Made by a program: the position numbers and the translations under genes. The notes beneath the pieces were generated by a model. That model was not told the origin of the DNA and ran no database searches. It saw nothing but the letters and a program-made list of their open reading frames with translations. DNA of 37,150 bases, taken from the NCBI GenBank assembly GCA_019912545.1, contig JAIOIK010000102.1, positions 1-37,150 of the forward strand, in the 5' to 3' direction. How positions within the stretch are numbered: position 1 is the stretch's first letter; each line of letters begins with the position of its first letter. This document shows, in pieces, positions 1 through 10,178 of this stretch. This DNA comes from Ignavibacteria bacterium. GTDB lineage: Bacteria > Bacteroidota > Ignavibacteria > Tepidaquicellales > OLB5.

Positions 1-184
1 CCTCAACCTTTTTATCTATATGCTCATCACGATTGAATATAAACTGGCTTTTCTTTTCGGCTATTTTATCGACTTTAAAGAGATTGTAACCGAGCGTTAT
101 AAGGGCAGCTGCTAAGCCAAGATCATAAGTAAGAAACTTCACATTTAAAGAGTCCGTTTTACATGGTTGATTATTTGAAGTCAT
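1..184 (-). CDS. DUF5659-like protein, partial (C-terminus cut by window edge)
   Basis: An open frame starts at the ATG at 184 and runs leftward off the window, giving 61 visible residues. It begins MTSNNQPCKTDSLN and continues with YDLGLAAALITLGYN, a pattern (aspartate, small hydrophobic helix, LGY) that resembles DUF5659, a short domain of unknown function common on plasmids, phages and integrated elements. Charged residues (KVDKIAEKKSQFIFNRDE) follow. The upstream bases give no convincing ribosome binding site. It lies 150 bases downstream of the 293-aa gene on the same strand and could share its transcript. Function unknown. The family match is from memory of the sequence pattern only. 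Confidence 0.5.
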   Translation of the reverse strand, partial: MTSNNQPCKTDSLNVKFLTYDLGLAAALITLGYNLFKVDKIAEKKSQFIFNRDEHIDKKVE

Positions 185-1497: not shown

Positions 1498-1965
1498 ATG
1501 CAGATAGTACCGAATTTAATCGAACAAATATCAGAGCCTTTCAATATAAAGGAACTGCATGTAAATTTTGTCAGGAATACAAAACCGGGTGAAATTGTGA
1601 TCAATAAAACGGCATTTCTTTGCCATATGAACAGAAAAATATCCCAATGCATCAAATTACCAAAGGCTAAAGTGTATATTTCCAGTAAAGTGTTAAAACA
1701 CCTGTATGACAAACGGCCCGCTCAGGAATATGATTGCTTATTGGAAAATATATTCGGAATCACAAGATATCCCGATCTTCTATATATTAACAAAAGCGAT
1801 AAATCCGGGGATTATATCTTTGTTAAGGCTGTAAAGGGGTATAGCTATATGTGTTCTGCCAAATTTATTCAAACGAACAATTGTGGTAAATTAAATATTA
1901 TAACCGCCTTTTCCGTAAAACCGGAGTATATGAAAGATTTTAAATTGATATGGAGTTGGAAATAG
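1498..1965 (+). CDS. Hypothetical protein, possible BECR-fold (PBECR-like) nuclease, 155 aa
   Basis: The C-terminal half (about residues 58-155) reads VYISSKVLKHLYDKRP, then a helix, YPDLLYIN, GDYIFVKAVKG, and ends ITAFSVKPEYMKDFKLIWSWK. This order (strand, helix with KH, Pro-Asp turn, three strands, a T-x-F strand near the end) resembles the phage Barnase-EndoU-ColicinE5-RelE (PBECR) nuclease-like domains found in phage and mobile-element proteins. The first 55 residues are a separate N-terminal part without a recognised motif. The gene has its own terminator at 2034-2070 and stands alone on the plus strand. A toxin or nuclease role is an inference from shape only; a plain hypothetical protein is the safe alternative. 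Confidence 0.6.
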   Translation: MQIVPNLIEQISEPFNIKELHVNFVRNTKPGEIVINKTAFLCHMNRKISQCIKLPKAKVYISSKVLKHLYDKRPAQEYDCLLENIFGITRYPDLLYINKSDKSGDYIFVKAVKGYSYMCSAKFIQTNNCGKLNIITAFSVKPEYMKDFKLIWSWK

Positions 1966-2789: not shown

Positions 2790-3752
2790 GTGTCAGCCTA
2801 CTTAAGAAAACTAAAAAAAGGCACATTTTGGTATTACAAATTTAAATTCAGCGGAACGGTCTATTTCTCCGAATGTATTTATGTATCAAAAAGTGAGGCT
2901 AAAAGAGCCGAAGCCATTAAATACGAGGAAGTAAGCAATAAAAAAAGAAATACCCTTGATGTGCCTGTTTTAAGCCTTAGAGACGCCATTATCGAAAGAC
3001 TGGACTACGTAAGGGCTAAAAAAAGCGTTGATTATTATAAAGACAATAAAAGGTACTATTCAATGCTCTTAAAGTCTCTTGACAATATTCCGATAGACAG
3101 CATTACCCGAAAAGACATTAACGATTTTATTTTCACTCAAGCCAAAATTGCTAAATTAGCGGGCAGGGATAATTATGCTGTTAACTATATGCTCAATCTA
3201 TTTAAGGCTCTTTTCAATTATACTATTGAAAGCCATGAATTGAACATGAGAAATCCCTGTTTAGGCATAAAACCCTTTGCAGTAAAAAAGAAATTAAAAT
3301 ATATTCCGAGTGATAAGGAAATTGAAGCAGTAAGAGAGCTTTGTGATCCATACCAAAAACTCTTAATTGATTTCGTATCTGAAACAGCGGCACGGATTAA
3401 TGAACCGCTAAAAGTTACAGGTAAAGATGTATTCGATACATATGTAGTTTTATATACGAAAAAAAGCAAAAATTCGAATGTAATACCAAGAAAAGTACCA
3501 AAACCTGATTGCATCAAAGATATTAAAATTGAACCGGATGAAAGATTATTTAAATTATGGTCTGATACCCCAAAGTTTTTAGAAAGGAAGATTCAGGCTT
3601 TAGGGCAACATTCATGGAATTGGCACAATCTGAGACACAGACGGGCAAGTATATGGCATACTGTTGAAAAACGTCCTTTGTATGAAGTAATGTGTTTATT
3701 GGGACATAGCCAGTTATCTACGACGCAAAAGTACCTTCAAATGATAGTATAG
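2790..3752 (+). CDS. Tyrosine recombinase / phage-type integrase (320 aa)
   Basis: This enzyme cuts and rejoins DNA at attachment sites to integrate and excise the element. Residues 1-50 look like an arm-type DNA-binding domain (GTFWYYKFKF, then SKSEAKRAEAI). Residues about 60-165 form the SAM-like core-binding domain, and 170-320 the catalytic domain. The catalytic set is visible: R202 (in AARINEP), a candidate K224 or K225, H279 and R282 (HNLRH), H306 (LLGHSQLSTTQ) and the nucleophile Y315. Translation starts at GTG, 2790, behind GAAAGGAG. The length is at the short end for the family, but the protein is complete, with only five residues after the nucleophile. It faces the HTH gene and ends 91 bases before a strong terminator. 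Confidence 0.93.
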   Translation: MSAYLRKLKKGTFWYYKFKFSGTVYFSECIYVSKSEAKRAEAIKYEEVSNKKRNTLDVPVLSLRDAIIERLDYVRAKKSVDYYKDNKRYYSMLLKSLDNIPIDSITRKDINDFIFTQAKIAKLAGRDNYAVNYMLNLFKALFNYTIESHELNMRNPCLGIKPFAVKKKLKYIPSDKEIEAVRELCDPYQKLLIDFVSETAARINEPLKVTGKDVFDTYVVLYTKKSKNSNVIPRKVPKPDCIKDIKIEPDERLFKLWSDTPKFLERKIQALGQHSWNWHNLRHRRASIWHTVEKRPLYEVMCLLGHSQLSTTQKYLQMIV

Positions 3753-4125: not shown

Positions 4126-6120
4126 ATGACAGCTATACTTATAATAATGGCTATTGCAATTCTAATTGTTGTTGTAATTCTAATCGTTATTGTGAGCCGT
4201 TATATAGTTGCTAGAAACCAGAATACGAGTAGATTAAAGTCAGATTTTTCAAACAAATATGATTCTCAAAGATTAAAAATGGATTCGAATAATCAATTAG
4301 TAAATAGTATACAAGACATGAAAATTACAATAACGACGTCAAGTAGCTATAAAGATGATTCAATTATTGATATTACAGGTCAATCAAGCAACATTCCATC
4401 AAACATCAATTTGAAGAAATATACCAGTGGTGTCCCGTTTTGGGCACACCATTATGTTTATTCCTTCAATGAGTTAATGGGGGCTTCATATGAACAAAAA
4501 GGTTTTTATCATTTTTTCAAGGGATGTTTTCTCAAGGGTGAATATTTAGATCTTGAAGGAAACACAAATTATGCATTCATTTTATTATTTGATTTACTAA
4601 ATGAATATGAAACCAATAAAAAATTACTGAAGCTTGAAAATCATTTTAATATACTGGGGCAATATTATCCCAAGACAAAGCCCTATTGCAATGCTTACTT
4701 TGCTAAAATATTAGCCGGTGATGAAAGTGATGATGCAACGAAAATAAAAAGTGAAAACGAATACAGCCAAAATTACTATTATGACAATGACTATTGGTCT
4801 TTAGGAACAAAATATAAAGCTAAGCTAAAACTAAATGAAGAGGAAGTCAAACTACTTAATAAACTTTGGTATCCAACAAATAATTTCTGTAGTATTGAAT
4901 ATTGTTTTATGGAAATTCTTAAGCTCTATGTTTTAGTAATATTAGAATTGAATAAGAAATTTATCGAAGAAGGAAGTACTATAGATTCACAATTTATATC
5001 AGTTGCCGATGTCGTTGCAAGAAAACACTACAATTACAGAAACGGAAGTCATAATTACAAGTATTGCTTAGAAACAACTACAAAAGAATTATATTCTTAT
5101 ATCTTTAAACATTGCGAAAATGCGGTTCGAGAATATTATGGTCACAAACGAAAGATAAGTACTGATATATATTATTCAAATAAAGAAATCAAAGAGATAT
5201 ATGAGTCTGTAATTGTTTCCAGGGTATCTGAGATACTTCCGATTCTGATTAATTCGGTTGCGTTTCCTGATGAAGAAACAGAAATTCAGCTTTACACAAA
5301 AAACACTGGTCGATGGAAGTTCAAATTTGAAGAATTAACTAAAAATTACGATGGGAATATAAAAAAGTTTACGGACTCGATTCATGTTCTAGCAAAACTA
5401 AATCAAAAAAATCCATCCATCGAAAATATTTTCTTTGATGCATCAAAGTTTATCGCTAAATACGATAAGGAATCGGCTCTTATTCTATATATTCATTACT
5501 TATATTATGATTTAATATCAACTACTTTTGATAATAAACGATTCACAAAAACTATTCAGAAGAATTTATTTAAAACGAATGAACAATTACATGATTTCGA
5601 AATAATTGTAAGTGAACTGATTAATGATAAGAACCTGGACAAGGCTTTAAAGAGCGTTTCCAAAGTATACGAGGTTAAGAGAAAGAAAATTCGACTTGAC
5701 ACAGCTTCAATAAAAGAAGTACAGCAACAACATTCTGGAACAGTTGAACTCTTGAATGAATATTTAAAAGACGATTATGAAGATGAAAATAATACTATCA
5801 AAACTGAAGAAATGAATAAAGATGAAATCTTGATTGAAATAGTTCCCAAGATTGAAGGATTTCAAAGTTCAGCATATGAAAGTGATATTGCCTTTACGCC
5901 ATTACATTTAGAAACATTGGAATTATTTGTAAAAAGTAATTTTTCATTACCTCAATTAGATCTTGAATTATTTGCAAAATCAAAAAGCATCTTTAAAAAT
6001 CAATTAGTAGAAAGTATTAATGAAGCATGCTATGATTTGTTAGATGATGTATTAATAGAGGAAGAAGATGATTTTTATGCAATTAATATAAACGACTTTC
6101 AAAGAATTTCTGTAAAATGA
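4126..6120 (+). CDS. Membrane-anchored TerB-N/TerB-C domain protein (664 aa)
   Basis: Residues 4-28 are an uninterrupted hydrophobic helix, which suggests anchoring to the membrane with the rest in the cytoplasm. Residues about 100-310 match the TerB-N pattern: FWAHHYVYSFNELMG, then YEQKGFYHFF and NTNYAFILLFDLLNEYE. The last 75 residues (THE LETLELF region through FYAININDF) match TerB-C, with its acidic stretch EEEDDF near the end. TerB-N and TerB-C flank or replace TerB modules in proteins linked to Ter stress systems and to DNA-processing gene neighbourhoods. Here it is the first gene of a three-gene operon with a BrxD-like ATPase and an Lhr-like helicase, and its stop overlaps the next start as ATGA. 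The inferred role is sensor or scaffold for that pair. No strong ribosome binding site precedes the ATG. Confidence 0.8.
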   Translation: MTAILIIMAIAILIVVVILIVIVSRYIVARNQNTSRLKSDFSNKYDSQRLKMDSNNQLVNSIQDMKITITTSSSYKDDSIIDITGQSSNIPSNINLKKYTSGVPFWAHHYVYSFNELMGASYEQKGFYHFFKGCFLKGEYLDLEGNTNYAFILLFDLLNEYETNKKLLKLENHFNILGQYYPKTKPYCNAYFAKILAGDESDDATKIKSENEYSQNYYYDNDYWSLGTKYKAKLKLNEEEVKLLNKLWYPTNNFCSIEYCFMEILKLYVLVILELNKKFIEEGSTIDSQFISVADVVARKHYNYRNGSHNYKYCLETTTKELYSYIFKHCENAVREYYGHKRKISTDIYYSNKEIKEIYESVIVSRVSEILPILINSVAFPDEETEIQLYTKNTGRWKFKFEELTKNYDGNIKKFTDSIHVLAKLNQKNPSIENIFFDASKFIAKYDKESALILYIHYLYYDLISTTFDNKRFTKTIQKNLFKTNEQLHDFEIIVSELINDKNLDKALKSVSKVYEVKRKKIRLDTASIKEVQQQHSGTVELLNEYLKDDYEDENNTIKTEEMNKDEILIEIVPKIEGFQSSAYESDIAFTPLHLETLELFVKSNFSLPQLDLELFAKSKSIFKNQLVESINEACYDLLDDVLIEEEDDFYAININDFQRISVK

Positions 6121-7430
6121 TAGACAACATTAAACCTAAGGAGGCCACTTCCATAATCAATTCATTGATTAGTGGTGTAGTTCCTAAAATTGGAGTACAA
6201 CATATAACTGTTGGACGCTCAGAAGAAATAAATGCAGTTGTAGCTGCCTTGCAAGATGTGAAAAATGGACATAGCATGGTAAAATTTTGGATTGGCGATT
6301 TTGGTTCCGGTAAATCCTTTATGCTTCATTTGTTAAATACAGTTGCTTTAAAGCAAAAGTTTGTCGTAGCAAATGCTGACTTTACTCCTGATAATCGCTT
6401 GTATTCAAATGACGGGAAAGGCGTTGCACTATATTCAGCTATTATAGATAATATATCAATTCAAACTAAACCCGAAGGTGGAGCATTGCCGACTTTACTG
6501 GAAAAATGGATTGAACAAATTATCACGAAAACAGCAAACGAAAATAATATTTCATTGACTGAAATTCGTAATGAGCAATACCTAAAACTTATTCAAAGCA
6601 ACATCATGAAAACCATTCACGAAATTACTGAGGTCGGTGGTTTCGACTTTGGGACGGTTGTAATGAAATACTATGAAGGCTATATCAAAGATGATGAGCA
6701 TTTGAGACGAAGTGCTATTAAGTGGTTAAAAGGCGAATATAGAACCAAAACGGAAGCAAAACAAGACTTAGGGGTTAGAGAGATTATCAATGATTTGAAT
6801 TATTATGATATGCTCAAAAACTTTTGTAAACTTTTTGTAAGTATGGGTTATAGCGGTTTTATGATTAACCTTGATGAAGCTATCAATCTCTATAAGATTT
6901 CAACTTCTGTTATGAGAGAAAAAAACTATGAAAAAATACTTACTATTTATAACGACTGTTTTCAAGGAAAAGTAGCTAACTTGTTTTTCAATTTTGCAGG
7001 TACTAAGGAAGTTTTAGAAAATGAACGCAGAGGACTTTTCAGTTATAGTGCATTAAAATCAAGGCTTCTAACAAATAAGTTTGAAACATTAGAAATTAGA
7101 GATTTTGCACAGCCGGTAATTCGTTTAATGCCTCTAGACCATAATGAAATATTTGTATTGCTCAAAAAACTAAAAGCAATTTTTGACTATAATTATAAAA
7201 CCGACATTTCAATAAGTGATAATGAAATTCAACTATTTATGGAGGAATTGTTCAATAAGCCCGGTGCATCAGAATTTTTGACACCAAGAGAAGTAATAAG
7301 AGATTTTTTAAATATACTGAATATCATTCGTCAAAATCCAACAGTTGATAAAAATAAGTTATTTGGAGAACTTGAAATTTCAGACGAAAGACCTGATGAA
7401 GTTTCATTAGACAGCATTGAAGAACTATAA
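6117..7430 (+). CDS. BrxD-like ATP-binding protein (DUF2791 family, 437 aa)
   Basis: This is a P-loop ATPase of the BrxC/BrxD (DUF2791) group. The Walker A motif GDFGSGKS lies at 60-67. The family signature AIKWLKGEYRTKTEAKQDLG spans about 200-219. Walker B FMINLDEAINLY lies at about 248-259 with D253 and E254. The sensor-like AGTKEVLENERRGLFSY lies at about 294-310. Length and motif order are normal for BrxD, the ATPase that accompanies the BrxHI helicase in type 2 BREX. The start codon overlaps the TerB stop by 4 bases, and the stop shares a base with the helicase start, so the three proteins are probably made in fixed ratio. The inferred job is an ATP-driven switch or loader for the helicase on foreign DNA. 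No methylase, PglZ or BrxC gene is nearby. Confidence 0.88.
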   Translation: MIDNIKPKEATSIINSLISGVVPKIGVQHITVGRSEEINAVVAALQDVKNGHSMVKFWIGDFGSGKSFMLHLLNTVALKQKFVVANADFTPDNRLYSNDGKGVALYSAIIDNISIQTKPEGGALPTLLEKWIEQIITKTANENNISLTEIRNEQYLKLIQSNIMKTIHEITEVGGFDFGTVVMKYYEGYIKDDEHLRRSAIKWLKGEYRTKTEAKQDLGVREIINDLNYYDMLKNFCKLFVSMGYSGFMINLDEAINLYKISTSVMREKNYEKILTIYNDCFQGKVANLFFNFAGTKEVLENERRGLFSYSALKSRLLTNKFETLEIRDFAQPVIRLMPLDHNEIFVLLKKLKAIFDYNYKTDISISDNEIQLFMEELFNKPGASEFLTPREVIRDFLNILNIIRQNPTVDKNKLFGELEISDERPDEVSLDSIEEL

Positions 7431-9556
7431 TGTCATTTGATTTACTTTCTGAGCCAATACGGAAATTCATTCGGGACAAGGGATGGGAGCAATTACGACC
7501 AATTCAAGCTGCCGCTATTGCCAAAATTTTGGCATCAGATGACAATTTTATTCTAGCATCAAGGACGGCATCAGGTAAAACAGAGGCTGCGTTTTTACCA
7601 ATTCTTTCAAAAGTAGATTTTAAACAATCGGGTGTTCAAATACTGTACATTTCACCTTTAATCGCCTTAATCAACGATCAGTTTTATCGTATAGAAGAAC
7701 TTTGCAAAAATCTTGATATAACAGTTACCAAGTGGCATGGAGAGGCAAATAAAACTCTTAAAGACAGGTTGATTAAACAGCCAAACGGAATTGTTTTAAT
7801 AACTCCAGAATCATTGGAAGCAATGTTTGTTAACAAACCTTTTAATATCAAGCAATTGTTTTCAAACCTAAAATATATAGTAATTGATGAAATACATTCC
7901 TTTATTGGTACAGATAGAGGAATTCAGCTAAAATCGATATTATCCAGACTTCAAAATGTGAATTCAAAAACGTTCAGTATAGTTGGATTATCGGCAACAA
8001 TTGGCGATTACAATGAGGCAAAGAAGTTTACAGGTGATGAACTGAAAACGAAAGTTCTTTTGGATAGAACTGCAAAGGAAATTAATGTTGTTTTTCGTTA
8101 TTTTGAAAATTTCAATGAGGAATTGCCATTAGAGTTGCTAAAAGATCTATATATTGAGACTAAAGATAATAAAGTCTTAATTTTCCCTAATAGTAGAGGT
8201 CGAGCAGAAGAAGTTGCAGTAAAGCTCAATAAGATCTCAAGCCGAGTAAAGGGGCATTCAAATTATTTTTCACATCATTCTTCAGTGGACAGAGAGGTGA
8301 GGGAATATGTTGAATATTTTGCCAAAAATAACCGAAGACAAAACTTTTGCATATCTTGCACTTCTACATTAGAATTAGGTATTGATATTGGTACTGTTGA
8401 TGAAGTTGTGCAAATTGATGCAACCCATAGCATTTCCTCATTAATTCAAAGAGTAGGAAGAAGCGGCAGAAAGGAAGGCGAAAGCAGTAACCTATATTTA
8501 TATGCAACTACTAAATGGAATTTGCTTCAATCTATTGCTTGTTGGCTCCTATACACAGAAGGTTTCATTGAACTTCCTCAGAAAAACGAAAAACCATATG
8601 ATATTTTACTTCATCAAGCGTTATCAATAACCAAAGGGCATTCTGGAATTTTACTAACCAAATTAGTAAAACAGTTAAAAGAAAATGCTGCATTTAATCA
8701 AATTGAAGTGTTAGAAATAGAGCAAATCTTAAATTATCTGATTGAAATTGACCTTTTGGAAAAGTTGCGGTCAGAAGTTATTATAGGTATTGAAGGAGAA
8801 AGAATAGTAAATAGTCGGGATTTCTACAGCGTATTTAAGACAGAGGAGAACTTCAAAGTAGTTAATGCAGGTAATACTGTGGGTGAAATTCCTTTTTCTC
8901 CACAAATTATTGAAGATGAAAATATTTTACTATCTGCTAAAATATGGAAAATAAAATATGTGGACCATAAAGCAAAAAAGATAGAAGTAATCCCAGCAAA
9001 CGATGGAAAAAAGCCAATGTTTTTCGGAGGTAGTGCTGATATTCACCCCAAAATTAGAGAAAAAATGTTCAGAATTCTTTATTCCAATAAAACATTTGAC
9101 TTTCTAAATAAAGCCAGTAGTGATGAATTAGAAAAGATACGCAAAGAATTTTCAGTTTTTAATATTAAAAATTTGGAAAAGGAACGACCTTTGTTAATGG
9201 CTGAATTACATGCTCAATTGTTTACATTCACGGGATCACGAATAAATAGGACATTACAACTTTTATTGAACATATCAGAAATTAACAACTTAATAGATAC
9301 AATTAGCAGTTCGTTTTATTTCAATGGGTTAAATGAGAATTTCTGCGAGAAGCTTGATAATCTAAACTACTTTATAGAAGACATTGATTCACACATATGT
9401 GATCTTTTACATGCAAACCCGGGATTATTAAGTTTCTCTAAATGGGGCTTGTATTTACCTGAAAGTTTTCAAGTTAAACTTTTAAAAGATAAGTATTATG
9501 ATATTGAAGGTACTAAAGAGTATCTATCCAAAACAAAATTCATTATAAATTCATAA
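7430..9556 (+). CDS. Lhr/BrxHI-like superfamily 2 DEAD/H-box helicase (708 aa)
   Basis: All superfamily 2 helicase motifs are present: Q-like LRPIQAAAI (22-30), motif I ASRTASGKT (43-51), Ia ISPLIALINDQ (74-84), Ib TPESLEAMF (125-133), II DEIH (153-156), III GLSATIG (186-192), IV LIFPNSRGRAEEVA, V STLELGIDIG and VI QRVGRSGR. The Lhr-type WHGEANK segment (102-108) and the long C-terminal region after the helicase core place it with Lhr and BrxHI rather than RecQ or RecG. It uses ATP to move along or remodel nucleic acid. It is the last gene of the TerB-BrxD-helicase operon, starts at the TAATG overlap at 7430, and is followed by a strong terminator. It is shorter than full-length Lhr proteins. 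Confidence 0.9.
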   Translation: MSFDLLSEPIRKFIRDKGWEQLRPIQAAAIAKILASDDNFILASRTASGKTEAAFLPILSKVDFKQSGVQILYISPLIALINDQFYRIEELCKNLDITVTKWHGEANKTLKDRLIKQPNGIVLITPESLEAMFVNKPFNIKQLFSNLKYIVIDEIHSFIGTDRGIQLKSILSRLQNVNSKTFSIVGLSATIGDYNEAKKFTGDELKTKVLLDRTAKEINVVFRYFENFNEELPLELLKDLYIETKDNKVLIFPNSRGRAEEVAVKLNKISSRVKGHSNYFSHHSSVDREVREYVEYFAKNNRRQNFCISCTSTLELGIDIGTVDEVVQIDATHSISSLIQRVGRSGRKEGESSNLYLYATTKWNLLQSIACWLLYTEGFIELPQKNEKPYDILLHQALSITKGHSGILLTKLVKQLKENAAFNQIEVLEIEQILNYLIEIDLLEKLRSEVIIGIEGERIVNSRDFYSVFKTEENFKVVNAGNTVGEIPFSPQIIEDENILLSAKIWKIKYVDHKAKKIEVIPANDGKKPMFFGGSADIHPKIREKMFRILYSNKTFDFLNKASSDELEKIRKEFSVFNIKNLEKERPLLMAELHAQLFTFTGSRINRTLQLLLNISEINNLIDTISSSFYFNGLNENFCEKLDNLNYFIEDIDSHICDLLHANPGLLSFSKWGLYLPESFQVKLLKDKYYDIEGTKEYLSKTKFIINS

Positions 9557-9720: not shown

Positions 9721-9735
9721 CATACTTACAGCTTG

Positions 9736-10074
<339 letters not shown>

Positions 10075-10076
10075 AT

Positions 10077-10172
10077 TTCAAGCACTCTCCTCTACGAGTC
10101 TTCCCTACGGGTCTTCGACCCGAAGGGTCGTTGACGACTCGAAGAGTCGTAGACCAACTGAGCTACAGCCCC
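10077..10172 (-). pseudogene. Duplicated 5' fragment of tRNA-Ala, interrupted in the D-loop
   Basis: Read from 10172, this fragment matches bases 1-32 of the intact tRNA-Ala with a single change at base 25. The match stops at the start of the anticodon loop, after CTTGAA. A 64-base insertion lies between GTTGG and GGAGAG in the D-loop. There is no anticodon, variable loop, T arm or 3' acceptor strand, so it cannot be a working tRNA. The break points of the intact and broken copies are exactly 300 bases apart, which defines the size of the unit that carries the GIY-YIG gene. Confidence 0.85.
10091..10154. repeat. 64-base foldback insertion within the tRNA fragment
   Basis: The insert is bounded by 13-base inverted repeats with one mismatch (TCTACGAGTCTTC at 10091-10103, GAAGAGTCGTAGA at 10141-10153). 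Inside are smaller perfect hairpins, CGACCC-GAA-GGGTCG (10116-10130) and ACGACTC-GAA-GAGTCGT (10134-10150), and two direct copies of TACG(A/G)GTCTTC. It is far more structured than its neighbours. Confidence 0.75.
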
Positions 10173-10178
10173 AATTTC

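Follow-up and report, generated by a model that had tools for sequence, protein, structure and literature searches.

A predicted Shango (SngABC) anti-phage operon with an exchangeable SngA membrane anchor at a tRNA-Ala gene of an Ignavibacteria bacterium

The stretch of DNA analyzed here (the window) is the whole of contig C35, 37,150 nucleotides from an Ignavibacteria bacterium. ORF analysis placed three plus-strand genes at 4126-9556, designated sngA, sngB and sngC, which run into one another through ATGA at the sngA/sngB junction (6117-6120) and TAATG at the sngB/sngC junction (7428-7432), and the sngA start lies 374 nt downstream of an integrase gene (Table 1). A first-pass annotation made from the letters of the window had described an overlapping three-gene operon beside an integrase, and the ORF coordinates, the two junctions and the PF00589 gene confirm both points. 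It had also read the products as a membrane-anchored TerB-N/TerB-C protein, an ATPase with a BrxD-type domain and an Lhr-like helicase as in BrxHI, forming a probable anti-phage system that was unnamed and lacked the BREX core.

Table 1. Coordinates of the operon, its neighboring features and the regions of SngA.
Feature	Position	Strand	Assignment and evidence
Tyrosine recombinase (integrase)	2790-3752	+	GTG start; catalytic C-terminal domain present; PF00589, E 5e-7
sngA	4126-6120	+	664 aa; PADLOC SngA, PF15615, hydropathy, AlphaFold model
SngA transmembrane helix	residues ~4-22		
SngA linker	residues ~32-93		low confidence
SngA TerB-type helical core			
SngA TerB_C	residues 508-656		
sngB	6117-7430	+	437 aa; PADLOC SngB, PF10923, motif residues
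sngC	7430-9556	+	708 aa; PADLOC SngC, Pfam DEAD + Helicase_C, nearest solved Lhr 5v9x, motif counts
tRNA-Ala (GGC)	9735-9808	-	island attachment site
Putative 48-nt att core	9735-9782	-	3' half of tRNA-Ala; exact 48-nt copy at C116:11456-11503

The ATPase and helicase assignments held, with the refinement that PADLOC places the two proteins in SngB and SngC. SngB is a P-loop ATPase of the PF10923 (BrxC_BrxD) family (488 bits by Pfam), carrying GDFGSGKS as its Walker A motif and DE at residues 253-254 as its Walker B motif, and the PADLOC SngB model scored 551 bits on it compared to 146 bits for BrxD. SngC is an SF2 helicase of the BrxHI/Lhr-like group having DEAD and Helicase_C domains and the motifs TASGKT, DEIH, SAT and QRVGRSGR; the solved sequences nearest to it are the Lhr helicases 5v9x and 7lhl, and the PADLOC SngC model gave 713 bits compared to 429 bits for BrxHI, the second-best family. 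In a published helicase study (PMC12278908), SngC is grouped with BrxHI, DruE and DpdJ in a proposed clade of SF2 defense helicases; DruE of Druantia and DpdJ of Dpd differ from SngC in their partner genes, and their PADLOC models describe much longer proteins.

SngA ends in a TerB_C domain (PF15615, E 6e-24, 85 bits), and the PADLOC SngA model aligned to residues 98-654 with an E-value of 9.8e-36. Pfam detected neither TerB_N, which was sought even at a loose threshold, nor the central TerB in the window protein, so that the TerB-C half of the earlier description stood and the TerB-N half did not. The membrane anchor ascribed to this protein was supported by a strong hydrophobic helix at residues 4-22 (mean hydropathy 3.9), and, given the basic residues on the C-terminal side of this helix, the rest of SngA would lie in the cytoplasm according to the positive-inside rule. 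The AlphaFold model of SngA was fair (mean pLDDT 77.5), while the predicted structure of SngB was poor (mean pLDDT 60.8). Foldseek returned no match to the SngA model at E <= 0.001, and VIA-align yielded nothing beyond helical-repeat arrangements of a common kind and, in the C-terminal domain, winged-helix-like matches (Z 6-7, under the level regarded as useful). With no fold matched significantly, structure lends no support to the role of SngA or to the order of steps in the mechanism proposed below. A sequence search for solved relatives of SngA and SngB gave none that was meaningful, and matches of SngA to a bile acid receptor at E 0.06 were rejected as chance.

The operon is assigned to Shango and not to BREX because the Shango models outscore the BREX models for SngB and SngC and because SngA matches the Shango model as well. 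According to the report on this system (PMC10250203), Shango was published in 2022-2023 as a TerB protein, an ATPase and a DEAD/DEAH helicase found at cDHS1 of P. aeruginosa and independently in E. coli, and it stops phages in Pseudomonas as well as in E. coli; PA14 Shango placed in PAO1 lowered plaque numbers 10-100-fold for several phages, and the E. coli form gave an approximately 10-fold reduction for two phages. In the window SngA, SngB and SngC were all matched and are adjacent in one operon, and this copy shares with the Shango of P. aeruginosa PA14 and E. coli the three families, their order, the overlapping or abutting genes and a mobile or defense-island context. The two differ in sequence: the window SngB is ~38% identical to the Enterobacteria form, and the Klebsiella SngA shows TerB_N, TerB and TerB_C whereas the window SngA is so divergent that Pfam sees TerB_C only. 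A comparison of the window-type SngA family with the Klebsiella SngA by hhalign gave no match. Judged by sequence and gene order, the operon is very probably Shango in complete form, an anti-phage system (SngABC) that an integrative island at tRNA-Ala carries as its cargo. Its anti-phage activity would be carried over by analogy from the published inhibition of phages by other Shango members, and to that extent the earlier call of a probable anti-phage operon is upheld; the idea of an unnamed system is not, as SngABC had already been published and the PADLOC Shango models match.

The tRNA-Ala gene forms the right-hand boundary of the island. An exact 48-nt copy of its 3' half was found on another contig, C116, of the same genome (G000), where it adjoins the histidine kinase genes that flank tRNA-Ala in the Shango-less congener G271. 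The first base of C35 is probably already inside the island, and C116 and C35, two contigs that are not joined, are presumably the two ends of one island. The integrase and Shango form a module that abuts tRNA-Ala in two congeners: in G299 a 7.4-kb integrase-Shango stretch, 89.5% identical to the window, abuts the same tRNA with the integrase gene at the same place. Around this module the window has an inverted repeat of 19 nt (1969-1987/9572-9590, 95% complementary). A further contig of G299, C59 (L123:3953-10738), holds two tandem 47-nt copies of the tRNA-Ala 3' end 8 kb apart, and the genes between them, for an N6_N4_Mtase methylase, a ResIII/DEAD helicase and an SMC-like ATPase, are probably another defense module at the same tRNA. 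This tRNA-Ala is most likely a hotspot that collects defense modules. Beside the att copy on C116 there is a decayed second tRNA 3' end (L121:11338-11440), broken by a hairpin-rich stretch that resembles in style an insert at 10091-10153 of the window. Upstream of the integrase, a 155-aa ORF (1498-1965, plus strand) gave a weak, sub-threshold match to PBECR3, a phage Barnase-EndoU-ColicinE5/D-RelE-like nuclease.

On the other side of the boundary, a 91-aa GIY-YIG gene (9799-10176, minus strand; PF01541, E 2e-19) has the intact tRNA-Ala on one side and a repeat of the tRNA 5' end on the other, the repeat being identical over 23 nt and then degenerate. The layout looks as though the gene had entered the tRNA gene and the tRNA had afterwards been restored. 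A similar arrangement was seen in the congener G300 (C168). Small GIY-YIG genes of the window family were no more than 60 nt away from a tRNA gene in 14 of 30 fetched loci (L128-L157) from relatives of the window's genome, far above chance at a few dozen tRNAs per genome; the tRNAs were Ala, Pro, Ser, Leu, Asp and Arg, and the genes were mostly directly downstream and in the same orientation. These small genes may be tRNA-homing nuclease genes.

A genome scan provided 80 relative loci with SngB 76-97% identical to that of the window. All three genes, in the order A-B-C, were present in 76 of the 80 loci and in 72 of 72 where the contig has room for both flanking genes, with A and B overlapping in 67/76 and B and C in 62/76. 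Median identity to the window was 47% for SngA compared to 86% for SngB and 65% for SngC, indicating that SngA is the fastest evolving of the three. The Walker A, Walker B and helicase motifs were kept across the relatives with few exceptions, motif I of SngC being present in 76/76. In one locus (L005:7575-9591) two genes stand between sngB and sngC; judged by eye, one starts AlbA_2/Schlafen-like and the other is of no clear kind. Full operons were also found in distant organisms (Cetobacterium, Klebsiella, Pseudoalteromonas, Paenibacillus, Moraxella and a haloarchaeon), where every SngA matched the PADLOC model. When 5,426 complete genomes of E. coli were compared with the Klebsiella operon, 688 had similar DNA, which covered at least 80% of the operon length in 436. 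Within the phylum, 15 of 296 genomes had a SngB match, one of them a weak match in a longer frame, and within the genus Shango was present in 2 and absent from 11 of the 13 genomes. No SngB relative was found in a phage collection.

The neighborhoods of the 80 loci were assessed by PADLOC on the large proteins encoded up to 10 kb away, 96 in all with a length of 560 aa or more. The matches included JetC, MkoA/MkoC, type IIG R-M, HamB, Avs1b and DrmMI, as well as GajA/GajB, pAgo, type I R-M, DndD, LmuB and others, placing Wadjet, Mokosh, Hachiman, Gabija, Avs, pAgo and R-M systems near these loci. The first-pass annotation had suggested counting how often the three genes occur together without BREX core genes and near known defense genes. 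The three genes stood together at all the loci with room, defense genes were found within 10 kb of related loci, and no BREX core family was among the 96 proteins at strict thresholds (E <= 1e-75/1e-85, at which weaker matches may pass unseen).

These data bear on the possibility that the operon is a BREX remnant or minimal BREX, i.e., BrxD and BrxHI accessories serving core genes elsewhere or just past the window. The Pfam family of SngB and the second place of BrxHI among the PADLOC families for SngC speak for it, and both proteins are indeed homologous to the BrxD-BrxHI pair of type 2 BREX. Against it, the Shango models are ahead by ~400 bits for SngB and ~280 bits for SngC, and no PglX, PglZ, BrxC or other BREX core gene is present in the window, as the earlier annotation had noted. 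A core lying just outside, which it had named as a possible refutation, was not found when the genome of the organism itself (206 contigs totaling 3.66 Mb, 99.7% complete) was searched with the PF08665 (PglZ) and PF10923 profiles: the sole PF10923 match was sngB itself and the sole PF08665 match was a 522-aa PglZ protein with a response-regulator start, and a complete BREX outside the window was rejected on these grounds. We take the 522-aa protein to be a PorX-type regulator, with adjoining genes that are presumably tsaB/tsaE-like. Together with the lack of BREX core families around the relative loci, this renders a BREX remnant highly improbable, and the reading of the pair as orphaned BREX accessories did not survive. 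As families, SngB and SngC are distinct sisters of BrxD and BrxHI by sequence comparison; the likeness is a real family-level homology, yet the operon is not BREX. The question raised earlier of how self would be told from foreign DNA without methylation belongs to a BREX or R-M frame and is not forced for Shango. An equally slight chance is given to a housekeeping or stress operon for tellurite resistance or DNA repair. TerB domains take their name from tellurite resistance and Lhr helicases act in repair, which is in its favor, but the patchy presence, the island location, the defense-gene neighbors and the published phage resistance of the Shango family all stand against it.

Returning to Shango, the anchor of SngA was compared across relatives in the poorly conserved pre-core region, the segment ahead of a conserved 'DDSIIDVTG' motif. 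About half of the relatives have a single helix in this region, and the others have a TM2 domain, a signal peptide followed by a bacterial SH3_3 domain and a helix, two helices, or none of these; some SngA proteins with signal peptide, SH3_3 and helix also have TM2, and Pfam confirmed TM2 and SH3_3 in the examples scanned. In total, ~70% of labeled loci have a transmembrane or secreted SH3/TM2 module before the SngA core, the labels being drawn from hydropathy and longest-ORF starts with partly manual sorting; several Hymenobacter starts may be misjudged, L021 is counted as two-helix but holds TM2 by Pfam, and L006 is counted as anchored while just under threshold. Mapped onto a quick tree of SngB with 87 rows, the labels require at least 22 changes and anchor presence or absence requires 11. 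Anchor modules were also found in E. coli/Klebsiella, Pseudoalteromonas, Cetobacterium and a haloarchaeon (a helix in Klebsiella and Pseudoalteromonas, a TM2 domain in the haloarchaeon). In contrast, SngA of Flavobacterium, Pedobacter, Paenibacillus, Moraxella and other loci has no membrane segment while all three genes are kept. The membrane anchor of SngA is modular, with related copies swapping or dropping it, which is somewhat new; in the passages on Shango consulted, Millman et al. (2022) on the E. coli form aside, such an anchor is not mentioned, which suggests that it may be so far undescribed.

We propose a mechanism for SngABC that is, as a whole, tentative and somewhat short of an even chance. 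SngB, as a BrxC/D-type P-loop ATPase, and SngC, as an Lhr/BrxHI-type SF2 helicase, would load on DNA and translocate along it wherever it bears marks of phage replication, for instance ends, gaps or unusual structures. SngA would serve as a helical TerB-family scaffold coupling the two to an effector step, and in the branch of the window it may keep all three at the inner membrane, the entry site of phage DNA. Because no nuclease or methylase is recognizable in the operon, the outcome would probably be the blocking or remodeling of phage DNA rather than restriction with self-methylation. As a general requirement, the membrane step is contradicted by the many SngA proteins without a membrane segment. 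The envelope sensing through the TerB anchor suggested earlier is possible, but it cannot be the core of the mechanism, given that many intact Shango loci lack the anchor. A refinement, in which Shango is a membrane-tethered defense, with SngA sensing either the envelope or the genome as it enters and with the anchor as a functional specificity module that fits Shango to different hosts or phages, is conceivable but doubtful. The frequency of the modules, their repeated alternation, which extends to the distant lineages, and the poor conservation of the pre-core region are in keeping with it; the loci that keep three genes and no membrane segment and the manner of labeling on a quick tree weigh against it. 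That SngA is the recognition and targeting subunit, with its fast-changing N-terminus setting where SngBC acts and which phages are stopped, such that envelope-bound and soluble forms of Shango evolve by module exchange, we consider unlikely.

Taken together, the window holds a new copy of a known defense system, ordinary as a discovery and of modest interest for its exchangeable SngA anchor. A supposed new system is thereby struck from the list and an intact Shango in Ignavibacteria is gained along with its likely carrier, and the exchangeable anchor of SngA provides a concrete point at which the mechanism of Shango can be tested.
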